A stretch of DNA of 64,000 nt from Halospeciosus flavus (GTDB taxonomy: Archaea > Halobacteriota > Halobacteria > Halobacteriales > Halobacteriaceae): NCBI RefSeq assembly GCF_029814175.1, contig NZ_CP122312.1, positions 372,001 to 436,000 on the forward strand. Reading direction: 5' to 3'. Within the stretch, counting starts at the first letter, position 1; every line of letters starts with the position of its first letter. Positions 4,780-31,919 of this stretch are shown piece by piece. The notes below the pieces were generated by a model. That model was not told the origin of the DNA, searched no databases, and worked only from the letters and a program-made list of their open reading frames with translations. Both the position numbers and the translations under genes were made by a program.

Positions 4780-4793
4780 TTGGCCATCGACGG

Positions 4794-11610: not shown

Positions 11611-12984
11611 TATTTTTGGCTGACAGTATCAAAGGTGTAGAGTACGCGAATGCGCCAACCGATCGCTGGGTCGACAACGGTGTGAAGAAAGAAACAGCAC
11701 CATTCGATCAAGCAATCGGAGAGAACTTCACACTCTCCCAAGGAGATATGCGAGAGCTTGAATTCGATGAGGAGTTTGATGCCGTGATTACTGATCCACC
11801 GTATTATGACAACATTATCTATTCGGAGGTATCCGACTTCTTCTACGTCTGGCTACGCCTCTTGCTTGAAGAGGACTACGAGTGCTTCGAGTCAGACTAT
11901 ACCCCGCGAACTGAGAGTATCGTCACGAACCCATCGGAAGGGAAGAGTGTGAAGGACTTCGAAATGGAGCTCCACGAGGGGTTCGAAGTTATCAATGAAA
12001 ACCTCGCTGAAGATGGAGTTCTCACCTTCACGTATCACCATAGCGACTCTGAATCGTGGGGTGAGTTACTTGAGTCGCTCTGTAATGCACAATTCGAGGT
12101 GACGGCAACGTATCCAATAACCGCAGACCTTCACAAATTCATCTCGGGGGAGGCAGTGTCCTTTGACATCATCGTCGTCGCCCGCCCAATTAGCGAGACG
12201 GACCCGACGTCGTGGAACTCATTACGTCGTGATATCTACCGTACCGCTCGACGAACCCGCCAGCGACTTGAAGAAAATCGTGACCTCTCTCGTGGCGATA
12301 TCGGTGTCATGGAAATGGGTGAGTGCTTCCGCGAATACTCGAAGCATCACGGCAAGGTACAGCGCGATGGCGAGATTATGTCCGCGAAAGAGGTCGTCCA
12401 AGAGATCTACGGCATTATTCAGGAAGCCAGCGATATCGGCATTGAAGACGTCTTTATCGATCTCCTGGATACCGATGAGCCGTCCTACGACGATGTGAAC
12501 AAACTCTGCCGTGGCACTAACGCGACCCCCGAGGATCTGAGAACGGTCTGTCTCTATACCCAGGATGATGGCTTCGAGCTCGGCACTTGGGACAACGAAC
12601 GGCGCCGAGCGTATATCGAGGAACGGGTCAATGGTGACGGCGACGAGCATCTAACGGATCTCGACAAACTCCAGTTCCTCCGCTCTCGCTACGAGAAAGG
12701 GCAGTCGGTCCAGAACTATGTCGATAAGTGGGGTGTTGATGACGGTCTGCGAGAACTCGCTGGCCGGCTCGCCGACGTGACCGGCGACGACACTTACACA
12801 CGCGTGCTCGGCGACCGAGATATCACGAACTACTGATAGAAAATGAATCGTCTTCCCTCACCACGACGGAGAGAATTACGATGAATGGACACCACGATCG
12901 GACGAACGGCACGATGAGCCAGGGGAGTCACACTGTGCTTGACAGCGTAATTACTTACCGCACCGACGGGATCCGCTACTAAGA

Positions 12985-13406: not shown

Positions 13407-15167
13407 TTACAACAGTTTTAGCGGCCCTTCTTTCTCAACCTCACCAGTCCCGTTCTTGAGGAAATAGAGGTCGATCCACTCTTCGTCGCCGTCGCGACAG
13501 AATACCGGGATACACGTCGTTGTGTGTTCATACCGGTGGTTACAGCGTGTCTCAATCTGCTCCCGGGTCCAACTACCATCTTGCTCTAAGTCGTATCGGT
13601 TCCGAACGTCCCACGAGTGCTTGTCAGCCGCTGCCTTGACGACCCGAAGCGAGAAATCTCGGACGTCCTTGAACGTGAACGGACCACTCATAGTCTTCGC
13701 CTGATCGAGGTCGGCCTCGTCGACGCCATCGAGACAGAGCTTGTTCTCGGCGACGGCACGGAAAGCCTCGACTTCAGGGCAGTCCTCGGCGAGCACCTCA
13801 TGAAGATATTCGTGGACGACGTCGTCGTATCCCTCAAGGGTGAAGTCACCGAGTGGAGACACGATCTGTAGCTCCGCGCCAGTCTGTGTAACTCGTCGGC
13901 GTTTCGGCTCCAGCAACGGACAGAGAAACCCGAGCCGATCTGACTGGAGTAGGTATGCGTAACTGAACAGCCGAGATCGCGACGCCGATTCCTTCACTGG
14001 ATCATGACCTTCGGCATAGTATTTCGAGTCCAAGATCGCAATCGTCTTTTCGCCCTCCTGGATCGCGTGGTCGGGTTGGTGATAGACTTCATTCTCGTCT
14101 GCAAATGGATTGACCGACGGCGATCGAACAGGCGTGACATCGGCTAACTCGTCGAGGTGATCGTAGGACTTGATGTGGTCGAGTGCACGTTCGATGACGA
14201 CCTGTGAATATTGCTCAAACAGGGACTCCATATTGAGAACGTAGTCCACAACCAACTCTCGAGGACCCTCACGGAGTTGCTGACCAAGCGATGACGACAT
14301 GATCGCTTTCGCGACGTCGAACGCCTGTCGGTAGTACTGCCGTTGGCTCGGGAGATCACCGAGAGAAAGACGGCGATACTCCTCAATACGATCCAACCCG
14401 CTATCGACACCCATGTCCTCCAGACGAGTTACTTCACGGTATACCTCCGAGAAGATGCGGTCGTACGCTGGATGATTGATCTCCGATGAATTCTGCTGGA
14501 ACAGCCGAAGAAGCGTTTGTCCAGCGTAGTGGAGCAGCGAGTTTGCAGCATTATTGTACTCCGTCGTGTTCTGGATCCAATGCGGCTTGAGATTCCCGTG
14601 TGCGTGGTTCAATAGCGTCTGCTCTACGTCGATTTCCCCACGGCCGTCCATACTATCAGCACGGCGGATGAGGAGGTCCCGAATGTAGCCATGGCGTTTG
14701 ATCACTTCGAGCCCATCGAGATAGTTGATTGCGAGGACCACGAAGACGTCATCCAAATCAATGTCATCAGAGAGGAAATCCCGGAGCGGAATCCCGTGAT
14801 ACTCGATTGATCGGTTCTGATCGTAGACTGCCAGCAGCATGTCGAAAATATGCTCCCAGTCGATCTTTGGATCTACCTGTACCTTTGCAGAGGGTGTGAG
14901 ACTCACGACGCCGACGATATCGGTCGCCTCCACGTGGAGAATGTCATCGTCCTCACCATCGACAGTGACCGTGACGACTTCGTACTCCGTATCTGAATCA
15001 AGGGCGTCCTGACGCTTCGTGAAGACTCCTGGGCTCTCTTGGGTGAACGAGGCGCGACGAAGTTGCTCCGTAATCGACGTCGGACACCCCTCGATGCGTA
15101 TCTCGCCCCGCTCGGGGATATTGAACGTCTCTTGGCCGTACTCGTAGACTTCGTCGGCAGTACTCAT
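13407..15167 (-). CDS. mcrC: McrC-like nuclease subunit of a McrBC-type system
   Basis: 586 residues. The middle (about 95-330) has the beta-barrel and helical layout of McrC, and the C-terminal third holds a PD-(D/E)xK nuclease: HQPDHAI followed about 12 residues later by IAILDSKYY (Asp-x-Lys near residues 360-383). McrC is the cleavage subunit that works with the McrB motor on modified DNA. The start ATG overlaps the McrB stop by one base (TAATG), so the pair is coupled. The protein is longer than E. coli McrC (about 350 residues), as is common for this broader McrC-like group. It is convergent with system 1. Confidence 0.82.
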   Translation of the reverse strand: MSTADEVYEYGQETFNIPERGEIRIEGCPTSITEQLRRASFTQESPGVFTKRQDALDSDTEYEVVTVTVDGEDDDILHVEATDIVGVVSLTPSAKVQVDPKIDWEHIFDMLLAVYDQNRSIEYHGIPLRDFLSDDIDLDDVFVVLAINYLDGLEVIKRHGYIRDLLIRRADSMDGRGEIDVEQTLLNHAHGNLKPHWIQNTTEYNNAANSLLHYAGQTLLRLFQQNSSEINHPAYDRIFSEVYREVTRLEDMGVDSGLDRIEEYRRLSLGDLPSQRQYYRQAFDVAKAIMSSSLGQQLREGPRELVVDYVLNMESLFEQYSQVVIERALDHIKSYDHLDELADVTPVRSPSVNPFADENEVYHQPDHAIQEGEKTIAILDSKYYAEGHDPVKESASRSRLFSYAYLLQSDRLGFLCPLLEPKRRRVTQTGAELQIVSPLGDFTLEGYDDVVHEYLHEVLAEDCPEVEAFRAVAENKLCLDGVDEADLDQAKTMSGPFTFKDVRDFSLRVVKAAADKHSWDVRNRYDLEQDGSWTREQIETRCNHRYEHTTTCIPVFCRDGDEEWIDLYFLKNGTGEVEKEGPLKLL

Positions 15168-16399
15168 TACTCGTAAGTTCCCATCTGTCGACGTTCCTGT
15201 TCGAGTTCGCGTTCGGCCAGCTTCGCAGCGGGGGTGAGATCGAACGCTTCGAACTCGTCGTTCAACGCACGGTAATGGTCGACGATACGCTCAATCTGAG
15301 GGAATGCCGCTGCGTTCAACAGTCGGGGAACAACGTACGTTTGGAACGCCTGGCCAACGGCAGCAGTTGGATCATGTTCGTACTCGCCGCCGTCTCGACA
15401 GCCGATGCCGAGGAAGACTGCGACGTCGCGGTAATGCATTGGCCCGAACCGCATAATCGCGCCCTGTGCCGTTGTCTCGGTTCCGTGATTGATCCCCTGG
15501 TAATCACGCTCGAAGAGCCGAAGGATTTCGGCCTCGTCAAGGTCAGTGCTCCCACTGACGTGAGCGTTAATCCAGTCTTTGAACAATTGGCGACGTTTGT
15601 TCTCCTCGTACTCGTCGAGTTCAATCATCGCGAACCGGCGTGTGATTGCGTTATCAAGTTCGTTCACTGTCCGGTCGGACATATTCATGGTGCAGATGAT
15701 ATTGACTCGCTCATCCAGTTCGATGGTGTCTCCCTCGTCCGTCTCGAAAATCGTCTGATGGGGATTCTCGATGGCAGTGTAGAGCGGACCGAAAATCTTC
15801 GAGATATCTGCACGAGTGATCTCGTCGAGGATCACACCATATTCTACGTCGAACTTGCGAGCCCGCTGAACTGCTTCTGAGACACACCCCAGTTTCGTCC
15901 GATAGCTCAACGAGTCGTCGGAGTAGTCTGGACTAATGCCGCCGATGATGTCCGAGGGTGTCCAAGACGGGGTAGCAGTGTTGAGAGTATAGCCAACACA
16001 CATCTCACGGGCCAATTGCTTGGCGAACGTCGTCTTCCCGGTGCCAGTCGGTCCGTACAGAACAACTGGTTTTCCGGCTGCAAGAGCTACCTTCGCATTA
16101 CGCTTGACGTTCTGTGGAACGAGAATGTCGTCGGGGGTTTCATCACCACGTAGACTGACTAGACGCTTCAACTCGTCCGATGCAACGTCAGATTCGAGAA
16201 CCGCACGGCGAACTTCCCCCAGTCCACGTTCACCATCGTGTCGAACGTCAAGCTGTTCGTCTTCTATGAGATACTTGAGGACTTCCTCCTCCTCGGTATT
16301 CTCAATGGCTTCAACGGTTTCCTCCTCAACGCGCCGCAGAATTCCAATATCATCTTTCGCCTGCTCAAGTGTATATCCCTCATCCGAAGAGTCGCTCAT
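15167..16399 (-). CDS. mcrB: McrB-like AAA+ motor subunit
   Basis: 410 residues from the ATG at 16399 (an ATG at 16411 would add four). Walker A is GPTGTGKT (116-123), Walker B is GVILDEITRAD (about 190-200), and the McrB signature is seen as CTMNMSDRTV (normally MNTADRS), followed by the arginine finger in ITRRFAMIEL. There is no obvious base-reading domain. The first 90 residues are acidic helices, so target recognition must come from elsewhere, perhaps McrC or one of the EVE-HNH proteins nearby. The 5' side is a 325-nt divergent region shared with system 2. Confidence 0.82.
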   Translation of the reverse strand: MSDSSDEGYTLEQAKDDIGILRRVEEETVEAIENTEEEEVLKYLIEDEQLDVRHDGERGLGEVRRAVLESDVASDELKRLVSLRGDETPDDILVPQNVKRNAKVALAAGKPVVLYGPTGTGKTTFAKQLAREMCVGYTLNTATPSWTPSDIIGGISPDYSDDSLSYRTKLGCVSEAVQRARKFDVEYGVILDEITRADISKIFGPLYTAIENPHQTIFETDEGDTIELDERVNIICTMNMSDRTVNELDNAITRRFAMIELDEYEENKRRQLFKDWINAHVSGSTDLDEAEILRLFERDYQGINHGTETTAQGAIMRFGPMHYRDVAVFLGIGCRDGGEYEHDPTAAVGQAFQTYVVPRLLNAAAFPQIERIVDHYRALNDEFEAFDLTPAAKLAERELEQERRQMGTYE

Positions 16400-16724
16400 T
16401 ACCGCTATCAAACAGGCCTGCCATTAAAAGTCTATTCAGAACGACTATTTCGCCAAACCTCAATTAGTGCTGCGCCTCAATCAATCGCTGTAACTTCCTG
16501 TTTCTCCAGCTCACTGGAATTCGCCCCCATTTTGTGGCGATACACCGAGAACTCATTGCCTCAATTATTGTATGCTGGTCAGATAAACATACTGAACCTC
16601 GCAAGGTACATACGAAAACTCCCCTCTTTCAAGCGAATCTTCGACCGATGAGTACGTTCTTCGCAGCACACATTATTCACGAGTGATTTCTGTCACCTTC
16701 AGCTGAATCGACGGGGTGAATCCT
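16400..16724. promoter_or_regulatory. Divergent, AT-rich promoter region between McrB and system 2
   Basis: A 325-nt stretch without a gene, clearly poorer in GC than the flanking genes. It must hold the McrB promoter (minus strand) and that of the system 2 operon. At its right end GGGGTGA (16713-16719) is a Shine-Dalgarno-like match 5 nt before the GTG at 16725, which decides the start of the DUF499 gene in favour of 16725 over the GTG at 16716. Confidence 0.5.
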
Positions 16725-19700
16725 GTGAGTAGCGCTCAGTCCCTCTTCGACGCCTGTACCCCTCGTGGGGATGTGCTGGACGGAACGCTCCAGGAGGATC
16801 AATTCGCAGCGAGTCTCGCGACGGTCGCACACGCACCCGAGGAGTCGGCCCCGGTCTATCGCGACGCCGCGAGGTTCTTCGACATGACCTACCCCACGGA
16901 CGGGCTTCGGACTCTTCTGAGTAACCTGACGGGACGATTCCTCGCCAGCGGTGGATACGACAGTGGCGGATACTCGAGCAGCATCCTCTGTCTCGACACG
17001 CGGTTCGGCGGCGGGAAGACACACGACCTCATCGCGTCGTACCACCTCGCGACGAATCCAACCAAGATCCAGGACCTTAACCGCCACCTCCTCGCCGGGG
17101 ACGAGGAGCTCGCCAGCACCTACCAGAAGGCCGCCGAGAGCGACTTCGACGTCGACACTGCCGTCTTCGTTGGTGGCCACGTCGACGCTCGAAACGCCCG
17201 AAGCGATCGGACAGATCCGAACGCTCCAAACACACGAACGATTTGGGGTGAACTCGCCTATCAACTCTACGGCGTCGAAGGCTACGAACACCTCAAGGAG
17301 TACGACCAGGAGCGAAACGCGCCGGGACAAAACACGCTCAAGGATCTCTTCGATCTCGGCGACGGTCCCGCACTCATCCTGATCGACGAAATCGCAGCCT
17401 ACCTCGAGGCTGCCTCGGCTGTCGAGGTCGGGAGCGCAACACTCGCCAGTCAGACGCTCAGCTTTATCCTCTCCCTTCTCGAGACGGCCTCGGAAGTCGA
17501 CGACGTGACCGTCGTCTACTCGGTCGCAGACACGGCTTTCGAGGAAGAGGCCGAAGACGTCCGCGGCCTCATTGACGAACTCAACCAGATCGGCCGTCGA
17601 CAACATAAGACCGTTACACCGACCGACGAGAGCGAAGTCGGACAAGTCCTCCAACATCGGCTCTTCGAAGAGATTGACGAAGGGAGCGCGTCCGAAGTCG
17701 CACAGACCTACTTCCAGTTCTACACGAGTAGCGAGCGACAGTTCCCACAGGAAGCGACTGATGCGAGCTACGTCGACCGCCTGGAGCGTGAATATCCCTT
17801 CCACCCGACGGTCATCGATACCCTCACCGAGAAAATCGACACGATCCCGAAGTTCCAGCGGACGCGCGGCGCACTCAAACTCCTCGCACGGGCCGTTTAC
17901 TACCGGTGGAACAACCAGCCCGAACACTACGACCGTCACTGGATCCGTCTCTACGACCTCACGCCCGAAGATGACGCGCCAAGTGGGAGTATTAGTTCGA
18001 CACTCCACGAGTCACTCTTCGAGTTCGTCGACCTGAGCTCCGCAGTCTCGGCGGACATCTACAACGATGATGGCACTGCACATGCCCAACTTGAGGACCG
18101 CAAGTGGACTGAGAAAGGAATCCCTCCACTCGGCACCCACCTCACGACGACGGTCCTCTGGCACAGCCTGGCCTACGGTGAGCAGGCCACAGGACTCACG
18201 CGTGCCGAACTGAACGAGACACTCGGCCATCCCGACGTTCGGTTCGACAACTACGACTCAGCGTTAGAGGCACTCGCCGGCTCCGATATGGCCGTCGCCT
18301 GCTACTACCTCTACGACGAGGAGCGCGTCCGCTTCAAGTCCGACCCGAACCTCATCCGCATCATCGACCAGCGGGTGGACAACACACCCGACGCACAGGC
18401 CCGCTCGCGCTTCGGCGCCCGCCTCGAAAGCGAAACGGGGAGTGGCGCCTTCGAGCCAGTTCTCTATCCAGAGTCGCCAGCTGATCTCCCAGATGATGCG
18501 TCGACACCGCAACTCGCGGTGATGCACATGGACACGGCGCCGGTGACCGGTAACCTCCTCGCCGATGAGTCGAACGAGGAGTCGGTCCCAGAGAAGGTCC
18601 AGACACTCTACCAAAAGTCGGCGTCGAAGCACGGCGGCGACGTCCAGAGTCGGGTCTACAAGAACTATGTCCTCTTTCTTGCACCCGACGCCGAGCGGGT
18701 GGAGAGTGCCGTCGACGAAGCGCGCCATCTCGAGGCAATCGAGGCACTTCTCGATAACTCCCAGCAGACTGCCGACCTCTCCGAAGAGCAAATCGCCGAA
18801 CTCGAGGAACGAAAGAACGAGAAATACGGGCTTCTCGGAGAGCTCGTTCGTGGTGTCTATCGCCACCTGTACTACGTCGATCGGCAGGGTCTAACCCACA
18901 TCACCATCAACGCGACCGAGGCGAACGGTGGGGCCTCCTTGGTAAGCGCTGTCGAGGAGACACTCGACGATCGACTCATCCGGGCCGATGCAGGGGCGAA
19001 GGGCATCGCGTTCTTCAAGCAGAAACTCTGGCAGCGGACGCAGGACAGCATGACGACCCAGCAGTTGGTCGAGCAGTTCGCGAAGAAGCCCGGCCTCCCC
19101 TATCTCCTGAGCACGAAGCCGCTCCGCAAGACTGTCGCGAAGATGGTCGCCGATGGGGACCACGTCTACTGGGACGGCGACGCAGGGACGATTTACTGGG
19201 ACGGCGATGACGATGATGACCCCTCGAACTGGTCGAAGCGGGGTTCACTCACAGAGTCGCCAGATGTCCGCACCACCATCAGCGATACCGACGTGAAAAT
19301 CGGCGGCGAGTATGTCGTCTACACGGGCATCGAAGCGCTTCTCGACGTCCATCACGACGCGATTCAGCCACCCGAGACTGACGAAGAGAAGTGTGCCAAA
19401 CCGGGGTGTACGAACGCCGCCGAGGGTGACGAATCAGAGTACTGCGACGAGCATCAGCCCGAGACGGCCGAGTGTGCGGATTGTGGCGAGATAGTCCCAA
19501 AGGACGAGCTTGACGCAGATGGCTACTGTTCGGACTGTCGTGGCCCAGAGGACTGGGAAGATTCGACCAGTCAGATGGCGGCATCGCGTGCGTTCAACAA
19601 AGTCCGCACCCACGCTCTCTCGGAAGCTGGCACAAACAGCACTCCCGGTGTGTCACACGTCATCGTCGAAATCGTCGGCGAGGACCAACTCTCGAAAGGC

Positions 19701-20036
19701 TCGTTCGCGGCCGGCCGTAACGCTCTGACTACCCGTTCAGAGAACGTCTCCGTCCGGATGAGCTACGACGTCAAGACCGCCACTGGGTCGACGTACACTG
19801 CGGAGTACCAGGGCAGTCTCGACGACTTCTCTCGCGTAACCAACCAGCCCGACCCGTTCGGGGATTCCGTCGATACCTCGCTGAAGTTCCGAATCGACTT
19901 CGACGACCCCGAACCGATTACTGAGGCTGAAGAAGACGTTCTCGCCGCCCTCCAGCAGGAGCTCGGTCAAACGAGTATCGACGTGAAGGTTCGTGCTCGG
20001 GGCCCGACCGAAATTGCCGCGGAGGTGACTCGATGA
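16725..20036 (+). CDS. DUF499-family ATPase, defence system 2
   Basis: 1,103 residues. The family's unusual P-loop is present (DTRFGGGKTH, about 91-100) with Walker B ALILIDEIAAYL near 214-226. The front begins SLFDACTPRGDV, and the FFDMTYPTDGLRTLL and EYPFHPTVIDTL blocks match the system 1 ATPase. Near residues 890-940 lie Cys clusters for two zinc ribbons (CAKPGC..YCDEH, then CADC..YCSDC). DUF499 (COG1483) proteins are predicted motor partners of DUF1156 methylases. The gene starts the system 2 operon and overlaps the next gene by 4 nt (ATGA). Confidence 0.85.
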   Translation: MSSAQSLFDACTPRGDVLDGTLQEDQFAASLATVAHAPEESAPVYRDAARFFDMTYPTDGLRTLLSNLTGRFLASGGYDSGGYSSSILCLDTRFGGGKTHDLIASYHLATNPTKIQDLNRHLLAGDEELASTYQKAAESDFDVDTAVFVGGHVDARNARSDRTDPNAPNTRTIWGELAYQLYGVEGYEHLKEYDQERNAPGQNTLKDLFDLGDGPALILIDEIAAYLEAASAVEVGSATLASQTLSFILSLLETASEVDDVTVVYSVADTAFEEEAEDVRGLIDELNQIGRRQHKTVTPTDESEVGQVLQHRLFEEIDEGSASEVAQTYFQFYTSSERQFPQEATDASYVDRLEREYPFHPTVIDTLTEKIDTIPKFQRTRGALKLLARAVYYRWNNQPEHYDRHWIRLYDLTPEDDAPSGSISSTLHESLFEFVDLSSAVSADIYNDDGTAHAQLEDRKWTEKGIPPLGTHLTTTVLWHSLAYGEQATGLTRAELNETLGHPDVRFDNYDSALEALAGSDMAVACYYLYDEERVRFKSDPNLIRIIDQRVDNTPDAQARSRFGARLESETGSGAFEPVLYPESPADLPDDASTPQLAVMHMDTAPVTGNLLADESNEESVPEKVQTLYQKSASKHGGDVQSRVYKNYVLFLAPDAERVESAVDEARHLEAIEALLDNSQQTADLSEEQIAELEERKNEKYGLLGELVRGVYRHLYYVDRQGLTHITINATEANGGASLVSAVEETLDDRLIRADAGAKGIAFFKQKLWQRTQDSMTTQQLVEQFAKKPGLPYLLSTKPLRKTVAKMVADGDHVYWDGDAGTIYWDGDDDDDPSNWSKRGSLTESPDVRTTISDTDVKIGGEYVVYTGIEALLDVHHDAIQPPETDEEKCAKPGCTNAAEGDESEYCDEHQPETAECADCGEIVPKDELDADGYCSDCRGPEDWEDSTSQMAASRAFNKVRTHALSEAGTNSTPGVSHVIVEIVGEDQLSKGSFAAGRNALTTRSENVSVRMSYDVKTATGSTYTAEYQGSLDDFSRVTNQPDPFGDSVDTSLKFRIDFDDPEPITEAEEDVLAALQQELGQTSIDVKVRARGPTEIAAEVTR

Positions 20037-20644
20037 CACCGCACCTCGACGGTGCAGAATCGGATACGGTCCCGACTACATCTACGCACGGAAGTAGCGT
20101 CTACGGCGGGCGTCCAACGTTCGCCCTCAGCCGTCGAGACGACCAAGACGGCGGTGCGGTGACGCTCTACGAACTCCTGCCCAAAGAGCAGGCGAACGCA
20201 CGTCACGACCGCCTAGAGCGCTGCGGTCGTAACCTCCGAACTGAGTCGTTTGTCGACGTGTTCGGCGATTCAACGGCTGGCCCAGTCGAGCAGTGGGCCT
20301 GGGAGGACTGGACGGCTGTGAAGATCGCGCGACTCTCCGGTGGTCGCCTCCGCTCGCTCCTCCCACTGCTCCGCGAGGAACTCGACGCCGTGGGTCTGGA
20401 TGTTGCGACCGTCACAGGGACCGGCGACGGCGACGTCTTCCTCCCGGAGACTGTCGGCGTTCGTCTCGCACTCGCGTTTCGAGGCATCAAGCCCATCCAG
20501 CGGGTCGACCGCATGCGGGCTTTCTGCCGTGGGCTCGCCCGAATGGGCGATGAAGAGTGCTACTACTGGTTCGCGAAGTGTCGTTCCCCGTCGAGTCCGA
20601 ACGGCGAGAAAGCCCTCCGAACCCTACTAACTGACCACCTATGA
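20033..20644 (+). CDS. 203-residue middle protein of system 2, unknown function
   Basis: A 203-residue protein locked between the ATPase and methylase by 4-nt overlaps on both sides, so it is almost certainly a component of the same complex or pathway. The C-terminal half is arginine- and leucine-rich and predicted helical (SGGRLRSLLPLLREEL, GIKPIQRVDRMRAFCRGLARM, ending HL), reminiscent of a helical adaptor or nucleic-acid contact. No catalytic motif is visible. GC content is high like the ATPase gene and unlike the methylase that follows. Confidence 0.72.
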   Translation: MTPHLDGAESDTVPTTSTHGSSVYGGRPTFALSRRDDQDGGAVTLYELLPKEQANARHDRLERCGRNLRTESFVDVFGDSTAGPVEQWAWEDWTAVKIARLSGGRLRSLLPLLREELDAVGLDVATVTGTGDGDVFLPETVGVRLALAFRGIKPIQRVDRMRAFCRGLARMGDEECYYWFAKCRSPSSPNGEKALRTLLTDHL

Positions 20645-23505
20645 CGGACCACAACGACGATCTAAAACCGCTCGCAATCGAGGGACAGCTTCCACTGAAA
20701 GCAGTAGGAATCGAAAATCTGAAAGAAGAAAATCCGAAGCATATGCCACCAAATCGGTATCTGTTCCCGTGGTATGCTCGGAGGCCTACCCCAGCAGCGC
20801 GGCTAGCTGTTCTTGCCTCAGTTTTACCGAAAGGTGTCGATAGTAACGAAATACTGAGTTTGATGCAGATTGAGCCACGTTTCGACATCGATGTTGACCT
20901 GGCTGAGTATGTAGAGAGGAAGAAGGCCACTGAAGACGAACGGTCTGGCACCCTTGGTGATCACTACGGTTACCCCCGTCCTTTCGAATCAACGCCCAGT
21001 CCGAAGCAGCGGAAAAACCTCCATGAAAAACTTCGAAACCACTGGGACGGAGAGCTTCCGACGGTCTTTGACCCTACAGCAGGCTCCGGGGTTATTCCAC
21101 TAGAGTCGCTTCGTTATGGCCTCCCCACTACAGCGAATGAACTGAACCCAGTTCCATCACTGATGCTAAAGGTTATTCTCGACTACCCAATCTCCGCGGG
21201 AAGCCTAAAGCAAGAGGTTGAGAAATGGGGAGAAGTAGTTAACAATAACGCAGAGGAAGAGCTATCCGAATACTTCCCTAGTGCTGACAATCGTCAGACC
21301 CCATCTCATTACATCTCCACATACACTGTTCAATGCCCGAATTGCGGATGTCGGATGCCTCTTACCTCAAAGTGGTGGTTACTAAAGAGGTCTGCCTCAG
21401 AGGGAATCGCTGTTCGTCCAAGATACGTTAATGGTGAATTACAATACGACCGGGTTGAGTTACCAGAAGATGTCACAAAGGATGAATTCAATCCGCAGAA
21501 CGGTCCACGTTCACGGGGAGGGGATACAGAATGTCCCAATTGTGACATTGTGACTGAGAGTTCAGAGATTAAGGATCTCGTTAGTCAAGGAAAATATGAG
21601 TACGAGATTCTCGGTGTGAAATACACCACTCCAAATGGTGGGTCTGGATATCGGACTGCGACTCAAACGGACTACGAGGGTTACGAGAAAGCGGTTGAGC
21701 GGGTTAACTCAGACTTCGAGCTTCATTCACTACTAGACGAAAAAATCCCCGAAAATGGACAGAAGACATCGGAACCAGCTGGCTACGGGTTCTCTGAATG
21801 GCGAGATATGTTCACCCCCCGTCAGTTGGTATCGCATTACGAGTACTGGCAAGCGTTTGAGGACGCCAAAGAAGACATAATTAGAGAATATAGTGAGGAG
21901 AAGGCTAAAGCGATAATCGACATACTCTCCCTAACAGGAGGTAAACTAGTCGATCGGAACTCGCGGATGTCTCCATATAATATCCACCGTGGGTATCCTA
22001 TGCACCTTACCGGCGCTAAAAATCTCAGCCCACAGTGGCTGTTCACTGACAACAACTCCTCGTCAGGGGATCAACAGTACCTCGATATTTTAGATCGGAT
22101 TCTGGGTTCATACGAAAAGATCGTTTCTTACCTAGAAAAGGTTGATGTGGACCCTGCTGATGTGCTCTCACAGGATGCAGCAAGCCTCTCATTGGAGTCG
22201 AATTCAGTTGAGTCAGTTGTGATTGATCCGCCATATTATTCTAGCATCATGTACGCAGAGCTATCAGACATATTCTATGTTTGGCTAAAGAGGTACCTCA
22301 ACGATGTACATCCCGAATTTTTCTCTGAGGATCTCACTGACAAGGAGGCAGAAGCAGTCGCAAATCCGGGAAAATTCCACGATGTGGCTGGAAATACGTC
22401 GAAGAAAGAGCTTGCACGCGACTTCTATGAAGAAAAAATGAGTGATATCTTCTCGGAGCTATATCGAATCGTAAAACCAGGGGGGGTTATGACTGTAATG
22501 TTCACTCATAAAGAGACTGATGCTTGGGATACACTAACCCGTTCCCTGATTAATTCCGGATTCACAATTACTTCTACACATCCAATAACGAGTGAGCGCC
22601 CTAATAGAGCAGACACCCAAGGAGGAGGTTCAGCCGATAGTACCCTTCTTCTGACTGGTCGAAAGCCACTAGAAGAGCAAGAGGACGCCGAGTCTATGCC
22701 TTCCCTATGGAGCGATGTAAAAGCTGAGACCAGAACCGCTGCAAAAGACGCTGCACGAGATCTTATTGACTCCGGAGTTAGCTTAACGAAAACAGACATA
22801 ATCATCAGTGCCTTCGGTCCAACGCTTAGGGTATTCGCAGAATCACATCCCGTCGTTGACGACGAAGACAACGAAGTTCGTCCTCGTCGGGCCTTGGAAG
22901 AAGCACGTGAAGCTGTCACTAAAGTATTGGTTGATGAGTATCTTGAAGCGGAAGGAATAGATGATTTAGATGATATTACAGAGTGGTACGTCCTGAGCTG
23001 GCTCGTGCACAGTTCCTCCGTTATTCCCTATGATGAGGGTCGTCAACTCGGACTAGGCATAGGCGTCGATATTGAAGAGATTAAAAGAAGTACCAAAGTT
23101 TGGGGGAGAAGTAGTGGCGATATTAGTCTCAATGGCCATCGCGACCGCGTACAGAACATCAACGAGAAGACCGAAGACCGATCCAGCCGCCTTCCGGTAA
23201 ACCCCGATGACCTCTCGTTCCCGCGTTCGCTGGACGCCGTTCACGCCGCAATGCACGTCTACGACAAGCGCGGCGAGACCGAGACCATCGAGTGGCTTCG
23301 GGAACGCAACTTCGACACTGACAGCCAGTTCAAGGCAACGCTGAAGGCGCTGCTTCAAGTACTGCCACACAACCACGACGACTGGGAACTCGCTCGGGAC
23401 CTCGCTGTCGGTCGGACAAGCGAAGTATTGGATTTAGACTTTAGCCCGAACGTTTTCGCAGAAGACAGCGACGATACGAAACAGAGCGAGCTTGAAGACT
23501 ACTGA
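20641..23505 (+). CDS. DUF1156 (COG1743) DNA methylase, system 2
   Basis: 954 residues. The family's conserved tryptophan/arginine start is seen as LFPWYARRP (41-49). The SAM-binding motif is FDPTAGSGVIPLESLRYG..ANELNP (143-170). Zinc-ribbon pairs follow (CPNCGC and CPNCD), then the catalytic DPPYYSS box near residue 530 and YAELSDIFYVW, as in system 1. It probably methylates adenine in host DNA to mark self or acts with the ATPase and helicase. Most of the gene (to about 23,130) is about 40-45% GC by spot count while the last 375 bp and both neighbours are well above 60%. The stop lies inside the 3' end of the antisense STAND-like gene. Confidence 0.85.
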   Translation: MTDHNDDLKPLAIEGQLPLKAVGIENLKEENPKHMPPNRYLFPWYARRPTPAARLAVLASVLPKGVDSNEILSLMQIEPRFDIDVDLAEYVERKKATEDERSGTLGDHYGYPRPFESTPSPKQRKNLHEKLRNHWDGELPTVFDPTAGSGVIPLESLRYGLPTTANELNPVPSLMLKVILDYPISAGSLKQEVEKWGEVVNNNAEEELSEYFPSADNRQTPSHYISTYTVQCPNCGCRMPLTSKWWLLKRSASEGIAVRPRYVNGELQYDRVELPEDVTKDEFNPQNGPRSRGGDTECPNCDIVTESSEIKDLVSQGKYEYEILGVKYTTPNGGSGYRTATQTDYEGYEKAVERVNSDFELHSLLDEKIPENGQKTSEPAGYGFSEWRDMFTPRQLVSHYEYWQAFEDAKEDIIREYSEEKAKAIIDILSLTGGKLVDRNSRMSPYNIHRGYPMHLTGAKNLSPQWLFTDNNSSSGDQQYLDILDRILGSYEKIVSYLEKVDVDPADVLSQDAASLSLESNSVESVVIDPPYYSSIMYAELSDIFYVWLKRYLNDVHPEFFSEDLTDKEAEAVANPGKFHDVAGNTSKKELARDFYEEKMSDIFSELYRIVKPGGVMTVMFTHKETDAWDTLTRSLINSGFTITSTHPITSERPNRADTQGGGSADSTLLLTGRKPLEEQEDAESMPSLWSDVKAETRTAAKDAARDLIDSGVSLTKTDIIISAFGPTLRVFAESHPVVDDEDNEVRPRRALEEAREAVTKVLVDEYLEAEGIDDLDDITEWYVLSWLVHSSSVIPYDEGRQLGLGIGVDIEEIKRSTKVWGRSSGDISLNGHRDRVQNINEKTEDRSSRLPVNPDDLSFPRSLDAVHAAMHVYDKRGETETIEWLRERNFDTDSQFKATLKALLQVLPHNHDDWELARDLAVGRTSEVLDLDFSPNVFAEDSDDTKQSELEDY

Positions 23506-25670
23506 CTGTCTGACTTCTCGTCTTCGAAACTCTGCTCGTTTTTCTCTTCCTCACCCGACTCGAGAAGTGCCGGCTGGGAATCCGTAGTAGCAATATCGTC
23601 CATGAATTCCGGCATCTCGAGCTCTCCGTCATCAAGTTCGTCCGCATCAATGAGTGGAGATTCGAGCTGCTGTTCGTACTGAGCGCGTTCATTACGATAC
23701 GTCTCGAAGCGTCGCTGGAGCGGAGAGAGAATCTCTGCATCGGCCGTGAACATACTTAATAGCTGGACCGAGAGTGAATACCACATCGCTGCGAAGACAG
23801 GGTTTTCCGCGCGTCCGAGTTCTTCACCTGCGTTCTCAATGAACTGGATGACCCACTCCGAGTCATCTGCTAGGTGGCTCGCAAACTTACCGATCGCATC
23901 AAGTATCTCCCAGAAGAGATCATCCTGCATTTGAACGAGTGACGTTCGGACCATCTCGTCTTCACCAGCCTCATCAATCATCGAACCAACCCGCGACTCA
24001 AGTGCAGTTTCGACATCGACGTTCTCCTCAAGTGTGTCGAGGAATGTGCGACACTCGGTGAAGAATCCACGCGCAGCCCCTCTATCCAAGCCATAGTTTT
24101 TGAAGATGTCGAGAACCGCCCGCTGCTGCTCGCCCTCCTCCTCCTCGCTTGTGGCCTCGCGATACAGCATTGTCCGGCATAAAATTTCGAGTCCGTCTTG
24201 GAGCGCCGTACCATCGGGCTCGTCCAAGTGTTCAGTAAATTCGTCTGCCTGAATCTCTTCGAGTACGAATTCGTAAATCTCCCAAGCAGAGGTCTCGAAC
24301 TCAGCTGGGGCTCGGGAACGAATCTGGCCTCGGAGGAGATTGATATACAAAAGCCCGATACGATAGTCCGCCTCCTCATCCTCGTCGATATCCTGCGCAG
24401 CGAACGTCTCATGGAATCGGTCAATCTCCGGAGCCAACAATCGGCTATGATGATCAAGAGGAGAGTAGGGAGCGAAACCCATGACGAAATTCAGACGCTC
24501 CCCAGGACCGAATCCAAGTTGGTCGATCTCCGAAGCAAGCTCCGTAGGTGACGGGTTCTCACCGTGGATACGTTCGAGATGGATACCGGCGAACGTGTTA
24601 TACGCGAATCCTTGGAGGGGTGCCATCTGTGATGTATCCTGTTCTGCGAACGCCTTGTGCGCATAATACTGGAAGGCAGCTCGATGGAGTGTACCTGTAT
24701 TCTCTGTTCGCTCGTAGAGGAACTCCCGGAACAAGTGATGAACGTCATATACTAACAGTCCAGATTCACCGGAGCGCCCGAGTTCCCGAATAACTGCTTT
24801 CTCACGGAGACTCTCAAGCGTCTGGCGAACCTCGCTTCGCGTGAAGTCCTCAAGTACATTCGCACAGATTTCAGCATCCAGTTCGATGAGAGGTGACGTC
24901 TGCCGGAGGAACGTCTCCTCGCGTTCGCTAAGTGACTTGAGATATTGCTGTTCGATGTGATAATAGACATCGTCGCGAATCTCGAGCTCCGGCTTGGTAT
25001 CGGAGGATTCGATGAGAAGCTCGAGATAGTACGGATGACCATCAATCGCAGAATGAATCTCCTCAATACGTGAGGCAGAGATATCCCCGAAAGCATCCTG
25101 GAGAATTGAACTCGTCTCCTCCGAATCGTACATCCCGAGTTTTATCGATCGGGCAGCATCCTCATAGGGGATACGCCCTGTGGTTACGAGATGAACCGCG
25201 GAACCGAGGCCTTCTGAGAGTTCTCGAAGAAAGTCACGAGTCTGTTCCGGTGATTCAGGAGCGAGCTTGTGAACATCCTTCAAGTAAAGGACAAGGGGAT
25301 TCCCGTTTGATATCCCCGCGGTAAGATTCTGAAGCTTCTTGATATGCCGAGATCGGTCATCTAACTGTGCGCCGAAAGGTACGGGACCAAACCCAACATT
25401 TCCACCAGTAATCTGATTCTTGAATGATTGCACGACACCCGCTGCGTCTCGCGCTTCAGCTAGCAGATCCTGGGCAACGACATCCGGTGTATGTCCTCGT
25501 CGAACAGCGAAGCCACGCATTCTGGATCGGTCGGTGAGATCCTCCAGTACGTGGTCGAGGAATCGATTAACCCCGACTCCCGGTTCGCCATAGAGGTGGA
25601 CAGTTTGTTCTCCCGCATGGATAGCCTCGTGAACAGCATCCAGTTCCTCAGAGCGAACATTCGAGTTCAA
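23499..25670 (-). CDS. STAND/AAA-like regulator with a dead Walker A, antisense within system 2
   Basis: 723 residues. The fold reads as a P-loop NTPase followed by a winged-helix and long helical repeats: HLYGEPGVGVNRF at residues 25-37, a Walker B-like LVLYLKDVHKL near 125-135, a TTGRIPYEDA stretch, then HPYYLELL and LREKAVIRELGRSGE..VHHLFREFL typical of STAND ATPases. In the P-loop, the expected Lys and Ser/Thr are V34 and N35, so nucleotide binding should be weak or absent. It overlaps the methylase 3' end by 7 nt and its start is 105 nt from the helicase start, giving a divergent promoter. It may be a sensor or regulator of the system, or an independent insert. Confidence 0.72.
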   Translation of the reverse strand: MNSNVRSEELDAVHEAIHAGEQTVHLYGEPGVGVNRFLDHVLEDLTDRSRMRGFAVRRGHTPDVVAQDLLAEARDAAGVVQSFKNQITGGNVGFGPVPFGAQLDDRSRHIKKLQNLTAGISNGNPLVLYLKDVHKLAPESPEQTRDFLRELSEGLGSAVHLVTTGRIPYEDAARSIKLGMYDSEETSSILQDAFGDISASRIEEIHSAIDGHPYYLELLIESSDTKPELEIRDDVYYHIEQQYLKSLSEREETFLRQTSPLIELDAEICANVLEDFTRSEVRQTLESLREKAVIRELGRSGESGLLVYDVHHLFREFLYERTENTGTLHRAAFQYYAHKAFAEQDTSQMAPLQGFAYNTFAGIHLERIHGENPSPTELASEIDQLGFGPGERLNFVMGFAPYSPLDHHSRLLAPEIDRFHETFAAQDIDEDEEADYRIGLLYINLLRGQIRSRAPAEFETSAWEIYEFVLEEIQADEFTEHLDEPDGTALQDGLEILCRTMLYREATSEEEEGEQQRAVLDIFKNYGLDRGAARGFFTECRTFLDTLEENVDVETALESRVGSMIDEAGEDEMVRTSLVQMQDDLFWEILDAIGKFASHLADDSEWVIQFIENAGEELGRAENPVFAAMWYSLSVQLLSMFTADAEILSPLQRRFETYRNERAQYEQQLESPLIDADELDDGELEMPEFMDDIATTDSQPALLESGEEEKNEQSFEDEKSDSQ

Positions 25671-25775
25671 GATAGATAGGAAGAAGAGATGCAGTTACAA
25701 AAACCTACGACAGGGGTGGGGAGCCTCCGCACGGGTTATATGTGGGTCGGAAGTAAAGAACAAGCACCTATCACG

Positions 25776-28700
25776 ATGCCTACGCTCGATGATCGACCCT
25801 GGCAGTCAATATATGAGAGCCAGCCGGCAGAAGCCGGGTCATACCTCGTCAATGAATTCTACATCCCAGCACTTGAGCGGAGCATTCGCTACGATCGTGT
25901 CGCCGGATACTTCTCGAGTAGCGCACTCGCTGTCGCGTCCCGCGGCATCGACGCGCTCGTCGAGAACGGTGGCAAGATGCGTCTCGTCGTCGGCGCGGAA
26001 CTCTACGAAACCGACCGACCAATCCTCGAAGCACTCACGGACGAACTCGGTGACGACCTCGAGGAACTCGACGACGAGCAACTCGATGCTCGCCTCCAAC
26101 TCCTCGCTCATCACCTCCGCGAGGACCGCCTCACTATCAAAGTCGCCGTGCCTCGCGAGGGCAACTGGGGTATCTTCCATCCGAAACTCGGGATCTTCCA
26201 CGACGACGCGGACAACACCCTCTCCTTCGAAGGCAGCGTCAACGAGACGGCTGGCGGGTGGGAACGCAACTACGAACGGTTCAAAGTCCACCGCTCGTGG
26301 GTTGATGGCCAGACAGGATACGTCGACGGCGACATCGACACCTTCGATCGCCTCTGGAGCGACGACCATCCCTACGTGGAGGTCTACGACCTTCCGGAAG
26401 CGATCGAACAGGAACTCATCGAGTGGAAGGCGCCGGACACAGACACGGCCGTCGACGAAGCCATCCAGATTGCACGTGGGGAAGCCCCACCGACCGAACG
26501 CGATAAGGCGAACATCATCGCGGACGGCTCCCTCACGCCAGGTGGACTCGCACTCGCCGAGGAGGGAAGCACCATCACGCCGTGGCCCCACCAGCGCGTC
26601 GTCTCAGATACACTCGTCAACACCTACCCGAACAGCTTCCTCCTCTGTGACGAGGTTGGCCTCGGGAAGACGATCGAAGCCGGCCTGACCCTCTCCCGCC
26701 TCGGCCTCACCGGGGAACTCGAGACCGGCTTGCTCCTTGTCCCTGCAAGCCTCACGATCCAGTGGCAGGAAGAACTCTGGGAGAAGTTCAACATCAACGC
26801 CTACCGCTTCGACCGGGGGAGCGGGAACGAGTACGTCTTCCACGACGCATTCGGCCGGGAATACGCACCACCCTCGACGGCCGACCTGGACCTCGACGCC
26901 GACCGCCACGAGGAAGCATGGGTCGAGAGTCCGATCTGGCGCTTCCTCCACACCCGACAGAACGACACAGGCCCAACAATCGTCATCATGTCGTGGCACA
27001 CTGCTCGTCTCGAAGACCGCTGGGACCAGGTGGCCCCCAAGGACGGCGGTCGACCACGAACTCGCGATGAGGTGCCGGCGAGCTGTCGGGGGCGAACACC
27101 AACGAACCGTGAGGGCGTATGGGACGCCGTCATCGTCGACGAGGCACACAACGCCCGTTTGGGCAGTAGTTTCTACTCACTCCTCGAACGCCTCCGGGAA
27201 CACACGCAGACGTACTATCTACTGACTGCGACCCCGATGCAGTTGCATGCAGGCGAGCTCTACGACCTCATGTCGCTACTCGATCTTCCTGGCGACTGGG
27301 AGCACAAAGGGCAATTCGTAGAGTTCTTCGAGACACGGCAGGCACTCACGCAGGCCCTCGACGATGAACTCGGCCCAAACGACAGAGGATCGACGAGTGA
27401 GGAGTGGTCCGCACAGACGACACTCGAAACGGGCCGGTATCAGGACCGACTCCCGTCTGAACGGACTCTCTCTTCCCGTGTCTTCGATACCGTTGCCGAG
27501 ACTCTCGAAATCGACGACGAGGACCAATCCCGGAAGATCGCGAAGGATCGCGTCCTCACAACCTGTACACTCGCCGCCGACTACGGCGAACACTACGACG
27601 GCTACATTGAGACGTTCCAAACAGCACTCGACGAATACGACGTCGACCCATTCGACGCAAACGAGGACGAGAAGCTCAAGTACCTGCTCTATCCCGAGTG
27701 GAAGGCCGAGGAGGAGTGGCTCACCTTCTCACGCGGTGATCGACTGACGGCACTCGACGACCTCTCCGAGTCGGGATGGCGCGTTGTGCAGGACGTCCTC
27801 GCCGAGTCAACGCCGGTCGATGCACTCATTCACCGGAACACACGCGATACCCTCCGGAAGTACGAACAGGTCGGCCTGCTCGACGCCACAGTCCCCACCC
27901 GTAACCCACAACAGCGCGAAATCGAGTTGACTGAGGCGACGCGCGAGGTGTATGACCGCATCGACGATTACACGAATAAGTTCTACAAACTCGCTCAACA
28001 GTCCGACGAAGCCGAGACACGGGCTATCGGGTTCGTGATGACCACCTATCGGCAACGGCTGACGAGTAGCGTCTACGCGATTTCACAGAGTCTCCAGCGA
28101 CGCCTCGAGACACTCAGAGCCCAACGAACCGTTCTGAAGGGCAAGCAACGGGCTACCGACCGGAATACAGCTGACTCCGAACAGGCAATACTCGACACAC
28201 TCTCGGAGTACGACCTCGACAATCTCGAGGCACTCGACGAGCTGGAGGGTGACTTCGAAGAGGCTGATCTCGCGGCAGTTGTCCCGAACGTCACCGACGA
28301 AGGCATCGATTTGCTCGAGCAAGAAATCGCGGAGTTAGAGTCGTTCGTCGACGATCTTGCACGGATCGACCGCGACCCGAAAATCGGCCAACTCCGAGAG
28401 GACCTTGCGAAGCTCGATCGGGATGGACATAATCGGATCATCATCTTCACGCAGTATGCAGACACGATGGACTTCATCCGCAGGGAGCTCATCTCGGTTC
28501 ACGGGGCGACAGTTGCGACGTACTCGGGCCGCGGCGGTGAGATGTACGACGCCGAAGATGGGACCTGGACGACAGTCGGGAAAGAGCGAGTGAAACGCGA
28601 ATTCGCCGACGATGACGGACAGGTCGATATTCTCGTCTGTACGGACTCTGCGAGTGAGGGGCTGAACCTTCAGGAGTGTGGCGCACTCATTAACTACGAC

Positions 28701-29708
28701 CTGCCGTGGAATCCGATGCGAGTCGAACAGCGTATCGGACGCATCGACCGGATTGGACAGGAACACGAGGAAGTCGCGATTCTCAACTACAGCTACAAAG
28801 ATACGGTCGAGACAGATATCTACGAGCGACTGGACGCCCGTATCGGGCTCTTCGAGAACGTCGTCGGCGATATGCAGCCAATCCTCTCGGGTGTGAGTCA
28901 GCAGATTCGTGACGCGACGCTCAAAGCCGATCCGGAAGAACGCGACGACGTCGTCGAGCAAGCCGACCGGCAGTTTGCCGACGAGATCGAAGATCAAGAA
29001 GCGGGCAATCGTGTGGACGTTGGCGAGTCACTTGCGTCGGTAGACACGCTTGTCGAACAGGACGTCATCGACGAGGCGAAACTCGACGCCTGGCAATCCT
29101 ACAACCACCCCGATATCGTCGACGTCGGCGATACTGAGTACGAATACGCGTCACCGTATCGAACTCGAAGCCTGCAGGCAGTCCTCGTCGGGAACGAATC
29201 CCTCGCCGACTCAGGCATCGTGTTCACCGCCCTGAGCGACGTCGAATCCAACTTCGACGACAGCGAATACGCCGATGAGTTTGCGTTCGGTGAGAGTACA
29301 TATCGTCTCTCAGTTGACGGGTCACCGATCGATGCACCAGCGCCAGCGGGCGAACAGACCCTTGCGCAGGCTATCGCACCAGGTGCAAAGGAAGTAGCCG
29401 TGACGTTCTCTGCAGAGTGTGCCGACGAATTCCCCTCTGTGCATCATCTCGCCCCAGGGAATCCGCTCCTCAGCCAGCTCATCAACATGCTTCGAGAAGC
29501 CAGCGAGGAAGCGGAACGATTCGTCCAGCAGACTCAAACTCGGTCAGAGCAGTCCGAACACCCCGTCGTTCGGGGATGGGGCCGCGACGGCGACCTTGGA
29601 CGGCTGACGAGTGATGGCGAAGTCGTCGAGGATCAGACGATGCAGATCCTACAGTCGTGGTGTGAGACGTTCCTCGAAAATCGCGACCAAACCGCTAATT
29701 CGACGTGA
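25776..29708 (+). CDS. PLD-SNF2 helicase/nuclease-like protein, system 2
   Basis: 1,310 residues from the ATG at 25776; upstream in-frame starts give non-acidic extensions. The N-terminal domain is phospholipase D-like with one HxKx4D box (HPKLGIFHD, about 133-141) and a GSVNETAGGWERNYE segment. The Snf2-type helicase follows: CDEVGLGKTIEAG (about 290), VDEAHNAR (about 454), LTATPMQL, then TDSASEGLNLQ (about 956) and PWNPMRVEQRIGRIDRIGQ. PLD-helicases of this kind (COG0553) recur beside DUF499/DUF1156 genes in predicted defence loci. The likely role is tracking on, or cutting, unmodified DNA. There is no second helicase for system 1 in the window. Confidence 0.85.
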   Translation: MPTLDDRPWQSIYESQPAEAGSYLVNEFYIPALERSIRYDRVAGYFSSSALAVASRGIDALVENGGKMRLVVGAELYETDRPILEALTDELGDDLEELDDEQLDARLQLLAHHLREDRLTIKVAVPREGNWGIFHPKLGIFHDDADNTLSFEGSVNETAGGWERNYERFKVHRSWVDGQTGYVDGDIDTFDRLWSDDHPYVEVYDLPEAIEQELIEWKAPDTDTAVDEAIQIARGEAPPTERDKANIIADGSLTPGGLALAEEGSTITPWPHQRVVSDTLVNTYPNSFLLCDEVGLGKTIEAGLTLSRLGLTGELETGLLLVPASLTIQWQEELWEKFNINAYRFDRGSGNEYVFHDAFGREYAPPSTADLDLDADRHEEAWVESPIWRFLHTRQNDTGPTIVIMSWHTARLEDRWDQVAPKDGGRPRTRDEVPASCRGRTPTNREGVWDAVIVDEAHNARLGSSFYSLLERLREHTQTYYLLTATPMQLHAGELYDLMSLLDLPGDWEHKGQFVEFFETRQALTQALDDELGPNDRGSTSEEWSAQTTLETGRYQDRLPSERTLSSRVFDTVAETLEIDDEDQSRKIAKDRVLTTCTLAADYGEHYDGYIETFQTALDEYDVDPFDANEDEKLKYLLYPEWKAEEEWLTFSRGDRLTALDDLSESGWRVVQDVLAESTPVDALIHRNTRDTLRKYEQVGLLDATVPTRNPQQREIELTEATREVYDRIDDYTNKFYKLAQQSDEAETRAIGFVMTTYRQRLTSSVYAISQSLQRRLETLRAQRTVLKGKQRATDRNTADSEQAILDTLSEYDLDNLEALDELEGDFEEADLAAVVPNVTDEGIDLLEQEIAELESFVDDLARIDRDPKIGQLREDLAKLDRDGHNRIIIFTQYADTMDFIRRELISVHGATVATYSGRGGEMYDAEDGTWTTVGKERVKREFADDDGQVDILVCTDSASEGLNLQECGALINYDLPWNPMRVEQRIGRIDRIGQEHEEVAILNYSYKDTVETDIYERLDARIGLFENVVGDMQPILSGVSQQIRDATLKADPEERDDVVEQADRQFADEIEDQEAGNRVDVGESLASVDTLVEQDVIDEAKLDAWQSYNHPDIVDVGDTEYEYASPYRTRSLQAVLVGNESLADSGIVFTALSDVESNFDDSEYADEFAFGESTYRLSVDGSPIDAPAPAGEQTLAQAIAPGAKEVAVTFSAECADEFPSVHHLAPGNPLLSQLINMLREASEEAERFVQQTQTRSEQSEHPVVRGWGRDGDLGRLTSDGEVVEDQTMQILQSWCETFLENRDQTANST

Positions 29709-30953: not shown

Positions 30954-31919
30954 ATGTCCCGCTAGGTCTATCTCGCCGCCGCGAGCCAGGGTGGTAGTGC
31001 CCGCGGCTATCGCCATCTCCAGAAGACCGTCCAGAGCGCGGTCACCCTTCCGGACTTCGACCAACCCGTCGCCGTCTGGGGCGCACGCCAACCGGGTGCG
31101 TGGTCACAGATGGAGGCCGGCGACATCCTCCTCTTTTACACGGGCAATCACCGCTACACCCACGCGGCCACCGTCGTCGATATCGAACAGAATCGCGAAC
31201 GTGCTCGCGACCTCTGGTCGGCCGACGGATCTCCAGGTACCGACGACGGCACAGGCGAGTGGGAGTATCTCGTCTACCTGCGCGATGTCCGTGAGGTCGA
31301 CATCAACAGTACGGAACTCCACGACTGGGCAGGCTACGGAATGGACCACCTCGTCCGCTTTCAGTCACTCAACGACCAGGGCCACCACGAGATTCGCGAA
31401 CGCTACGGCGACGTCGAGACCTACATCGACGCGAAGACGACCAGTGATGGTCCAATCGCCGCCGCGTGGCAGGACTCGATCTTCGACGACATCACGGTCG
31501 ACGCTGCCGAGTCCGTCCGCGACGTCCACCAGCCACCACGTACCGAACATCGGGTCTCACGGATCATCCGGAATTCCGAGCTCGTCGACCAACTCAAGGC
31601 ACAGTACGACTACCGCTGTCAGGTATGCGACGAGCAACGGCGCCGCGGCGTCGACGTCTACTACGCCGAGGGCCACCACCTCTACCCACTCGGAGAGGGT
31701 GGCCCAGACGAACTCGAGAATCTGCTCGTACTGTGTCCGAATCACCACGCCGACTTCGACTACGGGACGATCGCTGTCGACCCACAATCCTACGAGTTAC
31801 GGCACTTGTACGAAGACGCCATCGACAATCGGGTACTAACTGTTCGCGGCGACCACGAGGTCGAGCGAGAATTCCTCCAGTATCACGACGAGGAAATCGT
31901 CGTGCCGAAGCTGCGGTGA
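30954..31919 (+). pseudogene. PUA/EVE-like HNH endonuclease, right copy, amber at codon 4
   Basis: From the ATG at 30954 the frame reads M-S-R-stop-V-Y-L-A-A-A-S-Q. The left copy reads M-T-S-Q-V-F-L-A-A-A-S-Q, and its fourth codon is CAG where this copy has TAG (30963-30965), a single C-to-T change. Everything after is intact and gap-free: reader-domain residues, then CQVC, EGHH, CPNHH of the HNH nuclease. The next in-frame start is ATG at 31110, which would lose 52 residues and damage the reader domain. TATA-like AATACTTC lies 28-36 nt before 30954. Either the gene is silenced or a shortened product is made. Confidence 0.75.

Follow-up and report, generated by a model that had tools for sequence, protein, structure and literature searches.

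STAND proteins, including the NLRs, are generally held to work through ATP-dependent switching and assembly. Here, we analyze a STAND protein of Halospeciosus flavus whose ATP site is lost, encoded within a 64,000-nt stretch of DNA (the window; assembly GCF_029814175.1, contig NZ_CP122312.1, positions 372,001 to 436,000) at the methylase-helicase junction of a BREX-related operon. As far as the accessible text of PMC12839542 goes, inactive STANDs are found as BrxB/BrxF and in Type-3 BREX-related (BR) systems, which likewise show a P-loop domain of the STAND/ORC type whose Walker A and B motifs are eroded, in a defence locus encoding a methylase, an ATPase and a helicase; for the BrxB-type proteins, the same text proposes a role as sensors or guards that signal to a live partner. 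The accessible parts of the literature also describe accessory genes inside BREX loci (PMC11341690), with PARIS or BrxU in Type I BREX loci likewise representing extra defence genes in or beside a restriction-type locus (PMC11341690, PMC12839542). The statement in a previous, sequence-only reading of this DNA that no described system has such a member was thus too strong for this kind of protein. The literature searched, including PMC8565338 but mostly without subscription papers and without the supplementary data of PMC12839542, describes neither this particular STAND nor the slot in which it resides. The relevant features are as follows:

23499..25670, minus strand: STAND-type protein of 723 aa with a TTG start and a lost ATP site (AAA_16 27.8 bits, below the cut-off of 32.6)
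25566..25589, minus strand: Walker A remnant GEPGVGVN (residues 28-35; K34 replaced by V, S/T35 by N)
25269..25295, minus strand: Walker B remnant LVLYLKDVH (residues 126-134; D131 replaced by K, D132 kept)
23499..23505: convergent 7-nt overlap of the stop ends of the methylase and STAND genes, read from the sequence
25671..25775: divergent intergenic region between the STAND and helicase genes, assuming a helicase start at 25776

The STAND-like nature of the protein and the loss of its P-loop residues (GEPGVGVNR, with V34 and N35 in place of Lys and Ser/Thr) had been recognized from the sequence and are borne out by our analysis. A comparison of four dead members (the window protein and P0001-P0003) with 16 relatives that have intact motifs shows that these residues are lost throughout the lineage: all four read GEPGVGVN or GEPGVGAN where the live relatives have GQPGVGK(S/T), with V at position 34, or A in P0003, and N at position 35. 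By contrast, the Walker B motif, previously described as kept, is eroded as well. The 16 intact relatives carry Asp131 (FF(V/I)D(D/N)xHK, e.g. FFVDDVHKL), whereas the dead lineage reads LYLKDVHK in all four members (LYLKDVHKL in the window), such that the Mg-binding Asp is replaced by Lys131 and only Asp132 remains. Other elements persist, including R166 in three of the four members and, in all of them, the motif GHPYYL, which we take to be the GxP motif of STAND NTPases. Within residues 1-320, the live set has 132 invariant columns, of which all four dead members retain 77; another 37 are changed in all four and 18 in part.

Structure prediction yielded a STAND fold with NBD, HD and WHD present, whose best structural matches are solved archaeal STANDs, NLRs and MalT; compared with the archaeal STAND ATPases 2qen and 2fna and with MalT (8bob), the window protein differs in its loss of the P-loop Lys and the Walker B Asp. 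A three-stranded cap after strand 4, a trait of BrxB/BrxF-type inactive STANDs, is not evident in the DSSP string of this moderate-confidence model, and the approximately 390 further C-terminal residues are predicted to be helical. Pfam revealed no effector domain in the 723 residues, PADLOC contained no family matching the STAND at E up to 0.001, and a sequence search of the PDB gave no match at E up to 10.

Full-length relatives of the window STAND share 95, 78 and 69% of its residues, the 78% ortholog (P0002) being that of Halarchaeum grantii. Between the window and G237, the dN/dS ratio (Nei-Gojobori) is 0.098 for the full 723 codons and 0.095 for residues 1-180, values that are rough because dS is near saturation (1.36 and 1.51, respectively). 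Judging from these relatives and a ratio of about 0.10 across two genera, the gene is not a chance open frame and, as far as two compared copies can tell, is maintained under purifying selection.

The operon that surrounds it comprises the following genes:

16716..20036, plus strand: DUF499/HmaC-like AAA+ ATPase (PF04465 113 bits, cut-off 23; PADLOC HmaC 296.5 bits; GGGKT)
20033..20644, plus strand: DUF7680 protein (Pfam)
20641..23505, plus strand: DUF1156/HmaB-like DNA methylase (PF06634 26.1 bits, cut-off 24; PADLOC HmaB 197.9 bits)
25776..29708, plus strand: helicase with an HKD (PLD-like) part and SNF2 domains (SNF2-rel_dom 49.6 and Helicase_C 65.5 bits, both above cut-off)

The helicase probably starts at 25776 rather than at position 25689 given in the list of open reading frames, because alignments with its orthologues begin only at Met29-30. 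Its N-terminal part scores below the cut-off for PLDc_2 (22.3 bits against 27) and contains the motifs HPK and GSVN; in PADLOC, its best match is PLD_Helicase (224.9 bits), with HmaA (204.0 bits) in fourth place after BrxHI and PbeA. The methylase has the motifs DPTAGSG and DPPY, and its putative N6 specificity goes with an N6_N4_Mtase score of 19.9 bits, below the cut-off of 26.7. Matches to the NCBIfam DUF499, DUF1156 and phospholipase D antiphage families stay below the equivalog cut-offs. The ATPases of the operon are intact, with GGGKT in the DUF499 protein and both GLGKT and DEAH in the helicase. Its gene content places the host operon among the BREX-related DUF499/Hma-like systems, with a predicted role in antiviral restriction. 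It has in common with the Type-2 BR, Hma or DUF499-DUF1156-phospholipase D set a DUF499 ATPase, a DUF1156 methylase and an SNF2 helicase with an N-terminal HKD-type domain, a helicase architecture that, in the accessible text of PMC12839542, serves as the mark of Type 2 among the loci called BREX-related. According to the same text, Type-2 BR systems contain DUF3780; here, DUF7680 is present, and DUF3780 was found in none of 10 genomes, in a search whose control likewise gave no match. In one clade, the operon differs by a cargo slot that separates the methylase from the helicase.

The methylase was searched in 391 haloarchaeal genomes, 132 of which gave matches. The analysis is based on 63 loci from 59 genomes, namely the 60 matches of at least ~894 bits among the matches listed plus L034, L038 and the window; the sample excludes listed matches scoring no more than ~862 bits, among them fragments and a distant family of methylases (~25-37% identity), and its G238 stretch covers a methylase split over two frames. 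DUF7680 accompanies the operon in 58 of the 63 loci. The junction between methylase and helicase is filled, with a gap of at least 714 nt, in 19 of the 21 loci of the helicase clade that holds the window (SH-aLRT support 98) and in none of the 42 others, the line for a filled junction having been set at 300 nt after the gaps were seen. The two empty junctions of the clade (87 and 179 nt) are copies in a single genome, G306. Outside the clade, the gap measures -4 to 21 nt in 40 loci, the exceptions being L116 (143 nt) and L118 (265 nt, where the methylase is shortened). The filled junctions contain 32 cargo reading frames, called mechanically (at least 90 aa, longest first), such that some small ones may be false, and grouped by blastp into 17 families:

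L038, L083, L084, L098, L102, L117: SF1 helicase of 738-743 aa plus a small protein (L038, Pfam AAA_11/AAA_12; L098, PADLOC MkoA)
L082, L085, L086, L100, L108: family of 312-323 aa (no Pfam match in L082, the one scanned)
Window, L038: STAND
L105: Ppl-like PHP-ATPase
L087: DUF3800 protein
L088: TauD plus a protein without an assigned family
L094: Nmad3 plus a protein without an assigned family
L112: HSDR_N with MCM OB
L084, L089, L110: further genes, without a family match or outside the scans

It is well supported that the junction is a cargo slot confined to one clade, whose contents are interchangeable and in several cases of defence type. In contrast to PARIS or BrxU, many different occupants here use one junction in one clade, and the occupant in the window is a STAND that lacks both an ATP site and a recognised effector. 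The previous description of the STAND gene as nested antisense within the operon is apt insofar as it lies between the methylase and helicase genes, overlaps the methylase stop by 7 nt and is divergent from the helicase (with a gap of 105 nt for the start at 25776); beyond the overlap, however, there is no gene opposite. Nor is its orientation special, since minus-strand reading frames occur in ten of the 19 filled loci.

A feature upstream of the helicase suggests how such a slot could be tolerated:

25736..25741, plus strand: TATA-like TTATAT at -40 of the helicase ATG, a variant outside the counted pattern

With a pattern picked after viewing the upstream sequences (T[AT]TAA[AG] or TTAAGT, scanned 18-52 nt before the helicase ATG), a TATA-like element was detected in 16 of the 21 clade loci, where dinucleotide shuffles give an expectation of 1.1, compared with 0 of 42 others (0.4 expected), although the loci are related and the cases hence not independent. 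In all 16 loci, it is positioned at -34 to -41. For the pattern TTWAWR, there was no enrichment upstream of the helicase (2/21 with 1.0 expected; 1/42 with 0.7 expected), and scans for sigma-70 promoters and terminators near the STAND, with models unsuited to archaea, returned chance-level counts. The helicase of this clade thus appears to have its own promoter, which would make the junction tolerant of inserts. Among the 16 loci with the element, one has an empty junction and only one has it beside the STAND.

Several traces document the history of the STAND in the slot. In the only other genome with readable context, G237 (L038), it again occupies the methylase-helicase junction and has the same orientation, two extra genes being present toward the methylase. 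Against its stop lies the degenerate 3' end of a methylase gene (34 codons; 53% identity to the end of the window methylase, E 2e-5), and the live methylase now lies beyond the SF1-helicase gene and the small gene, indicating that the STAND of G237 once adjoined a methylase as in the window. In G381, which has the same genus code, only the two ends of the STAND are left as a scar, a 797-aa gene adjoins the helicase and the core genes stay. Based on the methylase remnant and the two STAND ends, the STAND was probably in the slot before these genomes parted, and it can be lost. Between the window and G237, the STAND (78%), helicase (79%), DUF7680 (74%) and DUF499 (78%, part of the gene) proteins show similar identities, whereas the methylase reaches only 62%. 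The window methylase, whose GC content is low (0.489), is closest to that of G259 (L082; 76%) among the matches listed. Given this discrepancy, the methylase was likely exchanged on its own, with the STAND diverging in step with the operon.

The wider family offers a second case of ATP-site loss. Its profile matches 27 of the 391 genomes, and the dead lineage is found only in G000 and G237 (two of 26 genomes of the taxonomic family, with none further in 392 of the order). A search with residues 331-700 alone returned the same three close relatives, and a profile built from the four dead members yielded no further protein among the 7993 candidates scored, those sharing most words, and hence no intermediate between dead and live P-loops. 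None of 32 viral contig stretches that matched a pattern encodes a relative. Six full-length live relatives are 36-38% identical to the window protein; five of them have no operon gene within ~20 kb, and the sixth (G345, L034) lies ~1.6 kb after a helicase of the DUF499/Hma-like system. Another live relative, in Halorientalis marina (L145), is located near a different BREX-like set with genes 21-40% identical to those of the window operon, and two distant ones (~30% identical or less over their length) adjoin restriction genes, L041 being divergent from an Eco57I-type enzyme and L042 from McrB, followed by OLD-TOPRIM and Eco57I-type genes. In G312, a relative of 687 aa (25% identical) has lost both its P-loop (GEVGTMSN) and the first Walker B Asp (FIHDIH), and it begins 84 nt after a TIR and 8xMP pair (ThsB_TIR 64.4 bits; 8xMP 116.6 bits) on the same strand:

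L051:7842-11278, one strand: TIR, 8xMP and a second ATP-dead STAND in a row

In a tree of 26 rows, in which the G312 protein (L026) forms a long branch, a single origin of the dead state was recovered in 4% of 200 bootstrap trees, and a single dead clade has a p-AU of 0.245. The ATP site was thus probably lost twice in this haloarchaeal family, with a single loss not rejected. As separate observations, a conserved cysteine-containing protein of ~128 aa without a Pfam match is encoded divergently from live STANDs (L032:9318-9710; also L033, L035-L037 and L145), and no copy of it turned up in the window or among the 63 loci. Haloarchaea also encode STANDs with frames of ~1350-1411 aa (L045:9067-13122 and similar) that have their N-terminal part in common with the window STAND's family, the L045 protein showing a PADLOC Dsr1 match over 492-1222.

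The reading that we favour, with moderate confidence, is that a STAND lacking the ATP-site Lys and the Mg-binding Asp occupies an interchangeable slot of a BREX-related operon and likely serves as an add-on sensor or guard without an ATP cycle. Its placement in the slot is well supported; as to the mechanism, we infer that acquisition of a separate promoter by the helicase probably gave rise to the slot, since genes on either strand could then enter without silencing the helicase, and that the STAND would be driven by its own divergent promoter. For its all-helical, perhaps TPR-like C-terminal half, the candidate ligands are a viral protein, an anti-restriction protein or a core subunit that has been damaged. 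Since the STAND can probably not cycle ATP, it would relay the signal through contact with a live partner, for which the DUF499 ATPase and the helicase are the most plausible candidates, and not through an ATP-driven assembly of its own. A sensor or guard is the most economical mechanism for a protein that probably has no ATP cycle, has no recognised effector, has a helical C-terminal half and has neighbours able to act. It is also conceivable, more tentatively, that this BREX-related clade became a dock for defence genes after the helicase gained its promoter, and that among its occupants is a member of a new class of STAND sensors, NLR-like and independent of ATP; in this haloarchaeal family, the ATP site was probably lost twice, each time beside a partner module (the DUF499-HKD system, or TIR and 8xMP), with the dead STAND acting as the sensing subunit for the live partner.

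Among the alternatives, the one that survives best, unlikely as we consider it, is a self-contained defence gene that is simply housed in the slot, senses a virus and acts alone or with an unlinked effector, making no contact with the restriction system. The spread of occupants over 17 families, including some that look like stand-alone defence genes (Ppl, for example), would fit this idea, as would the five of six full-length live relatives situated away from the operon. However, the STAND diverges in step with the helicase, DUF7680 and DUF499, and, without an ATP site or a Pfam-recognised effector domain, it would be an unlikely autonomous executor. Less probable still is that it represents a core subunit of its lineage's system, equivalent to BrxB/BrxF or the Type-3 BR inactive STAND, with which it shares eroded Walker motifs amid methylase, helicase and BrxC/DUF499-type genes (PMC12839542, accessible text). 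While the BrxB/BrxF-type proteins form a compact domain, the window STAND comprises 723 aa with a winged-helix and a long helical part, its ~390 extra helical residues being unlike BrxB by its description, and its nearest structural neighbours are archaeal STANDs, NLRs and MalT. Moreover, PglZ had no match among the eight genes scanned, G381 has deleted the STAND and retained the core genes, and the dead STAND occurs in two of the 63 loci, the third match (L034) being of the live type and outside the slot. Its presence in so few loci led us to reject a core BrxB equivalent as the main explanation.

The suggestion of the sequence-only reading that the STAND uncouples helicase from methylase expression, through divergent transcription or as a protein, appears doubtful. 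It would agree with divergent starts ~105 nt apart and with a gene lying across the methylase-helicase transcript, but the TATA-like element of 16 of the 21 clade loci is found nearly always with other cargo or none, only one case being beside the STAND, such that uncoupling does not need the STAND; we consequently rejected an expression switch as the main explanation. Retained ATP binding by way of a shifted lysine, with K131 in the Walker B strand substituting for K34, is very unlikely: the two changes do occur together in all four members, but the gain of K131 comes at the cost of the Mg-binding Asp, and the Ser/Thr of the P-loop has given way to N35. Finally, capture of a decaying gene by chance, to which the two STAND ends in G381 might point and which was to follow from orthologues with an intact P-loop away from methylase and helicase, is highly improbable and was rejected, since such relatives indeed exist (five of six) but the dead lineage is conserved and selected, with an open frame, a dN/dS of ~0.10 that does not rise in residues 1-180 and identical substitutions in four members.

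The window island contains further defence-related remains. A second DUF499-type ATPase (4740-7991) and the methylase of another BREX-like set in pieces (9671-10582 and 11616-12836), with a DDE transposase alongside (8705-9514), apparently represent a broken neighbouring system spanning 4740-12836. A McrB/McrC-type pair (13407-16411, minus strand) is divergent from the DUF499 gene. Two HNH genes on opposite strands (3609-4556, minus; 31110-31919, plus), 72% identical over 269 aa, flank the island and are possibly its repeat borders.

A conserved lineage that lacks the ATP site and retains the fold, the winged helix and the helical half would provide a test of whether STAND proteins can sense without ATP switching. 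The slot, in turn, marks a single junction at which this clade's haloarchaea accommodate accessory genes, some being of defence type and many without a known role. Reading this junction in new genomes should therefore yield candidate antiviral genes in archaea, where few have been tested.
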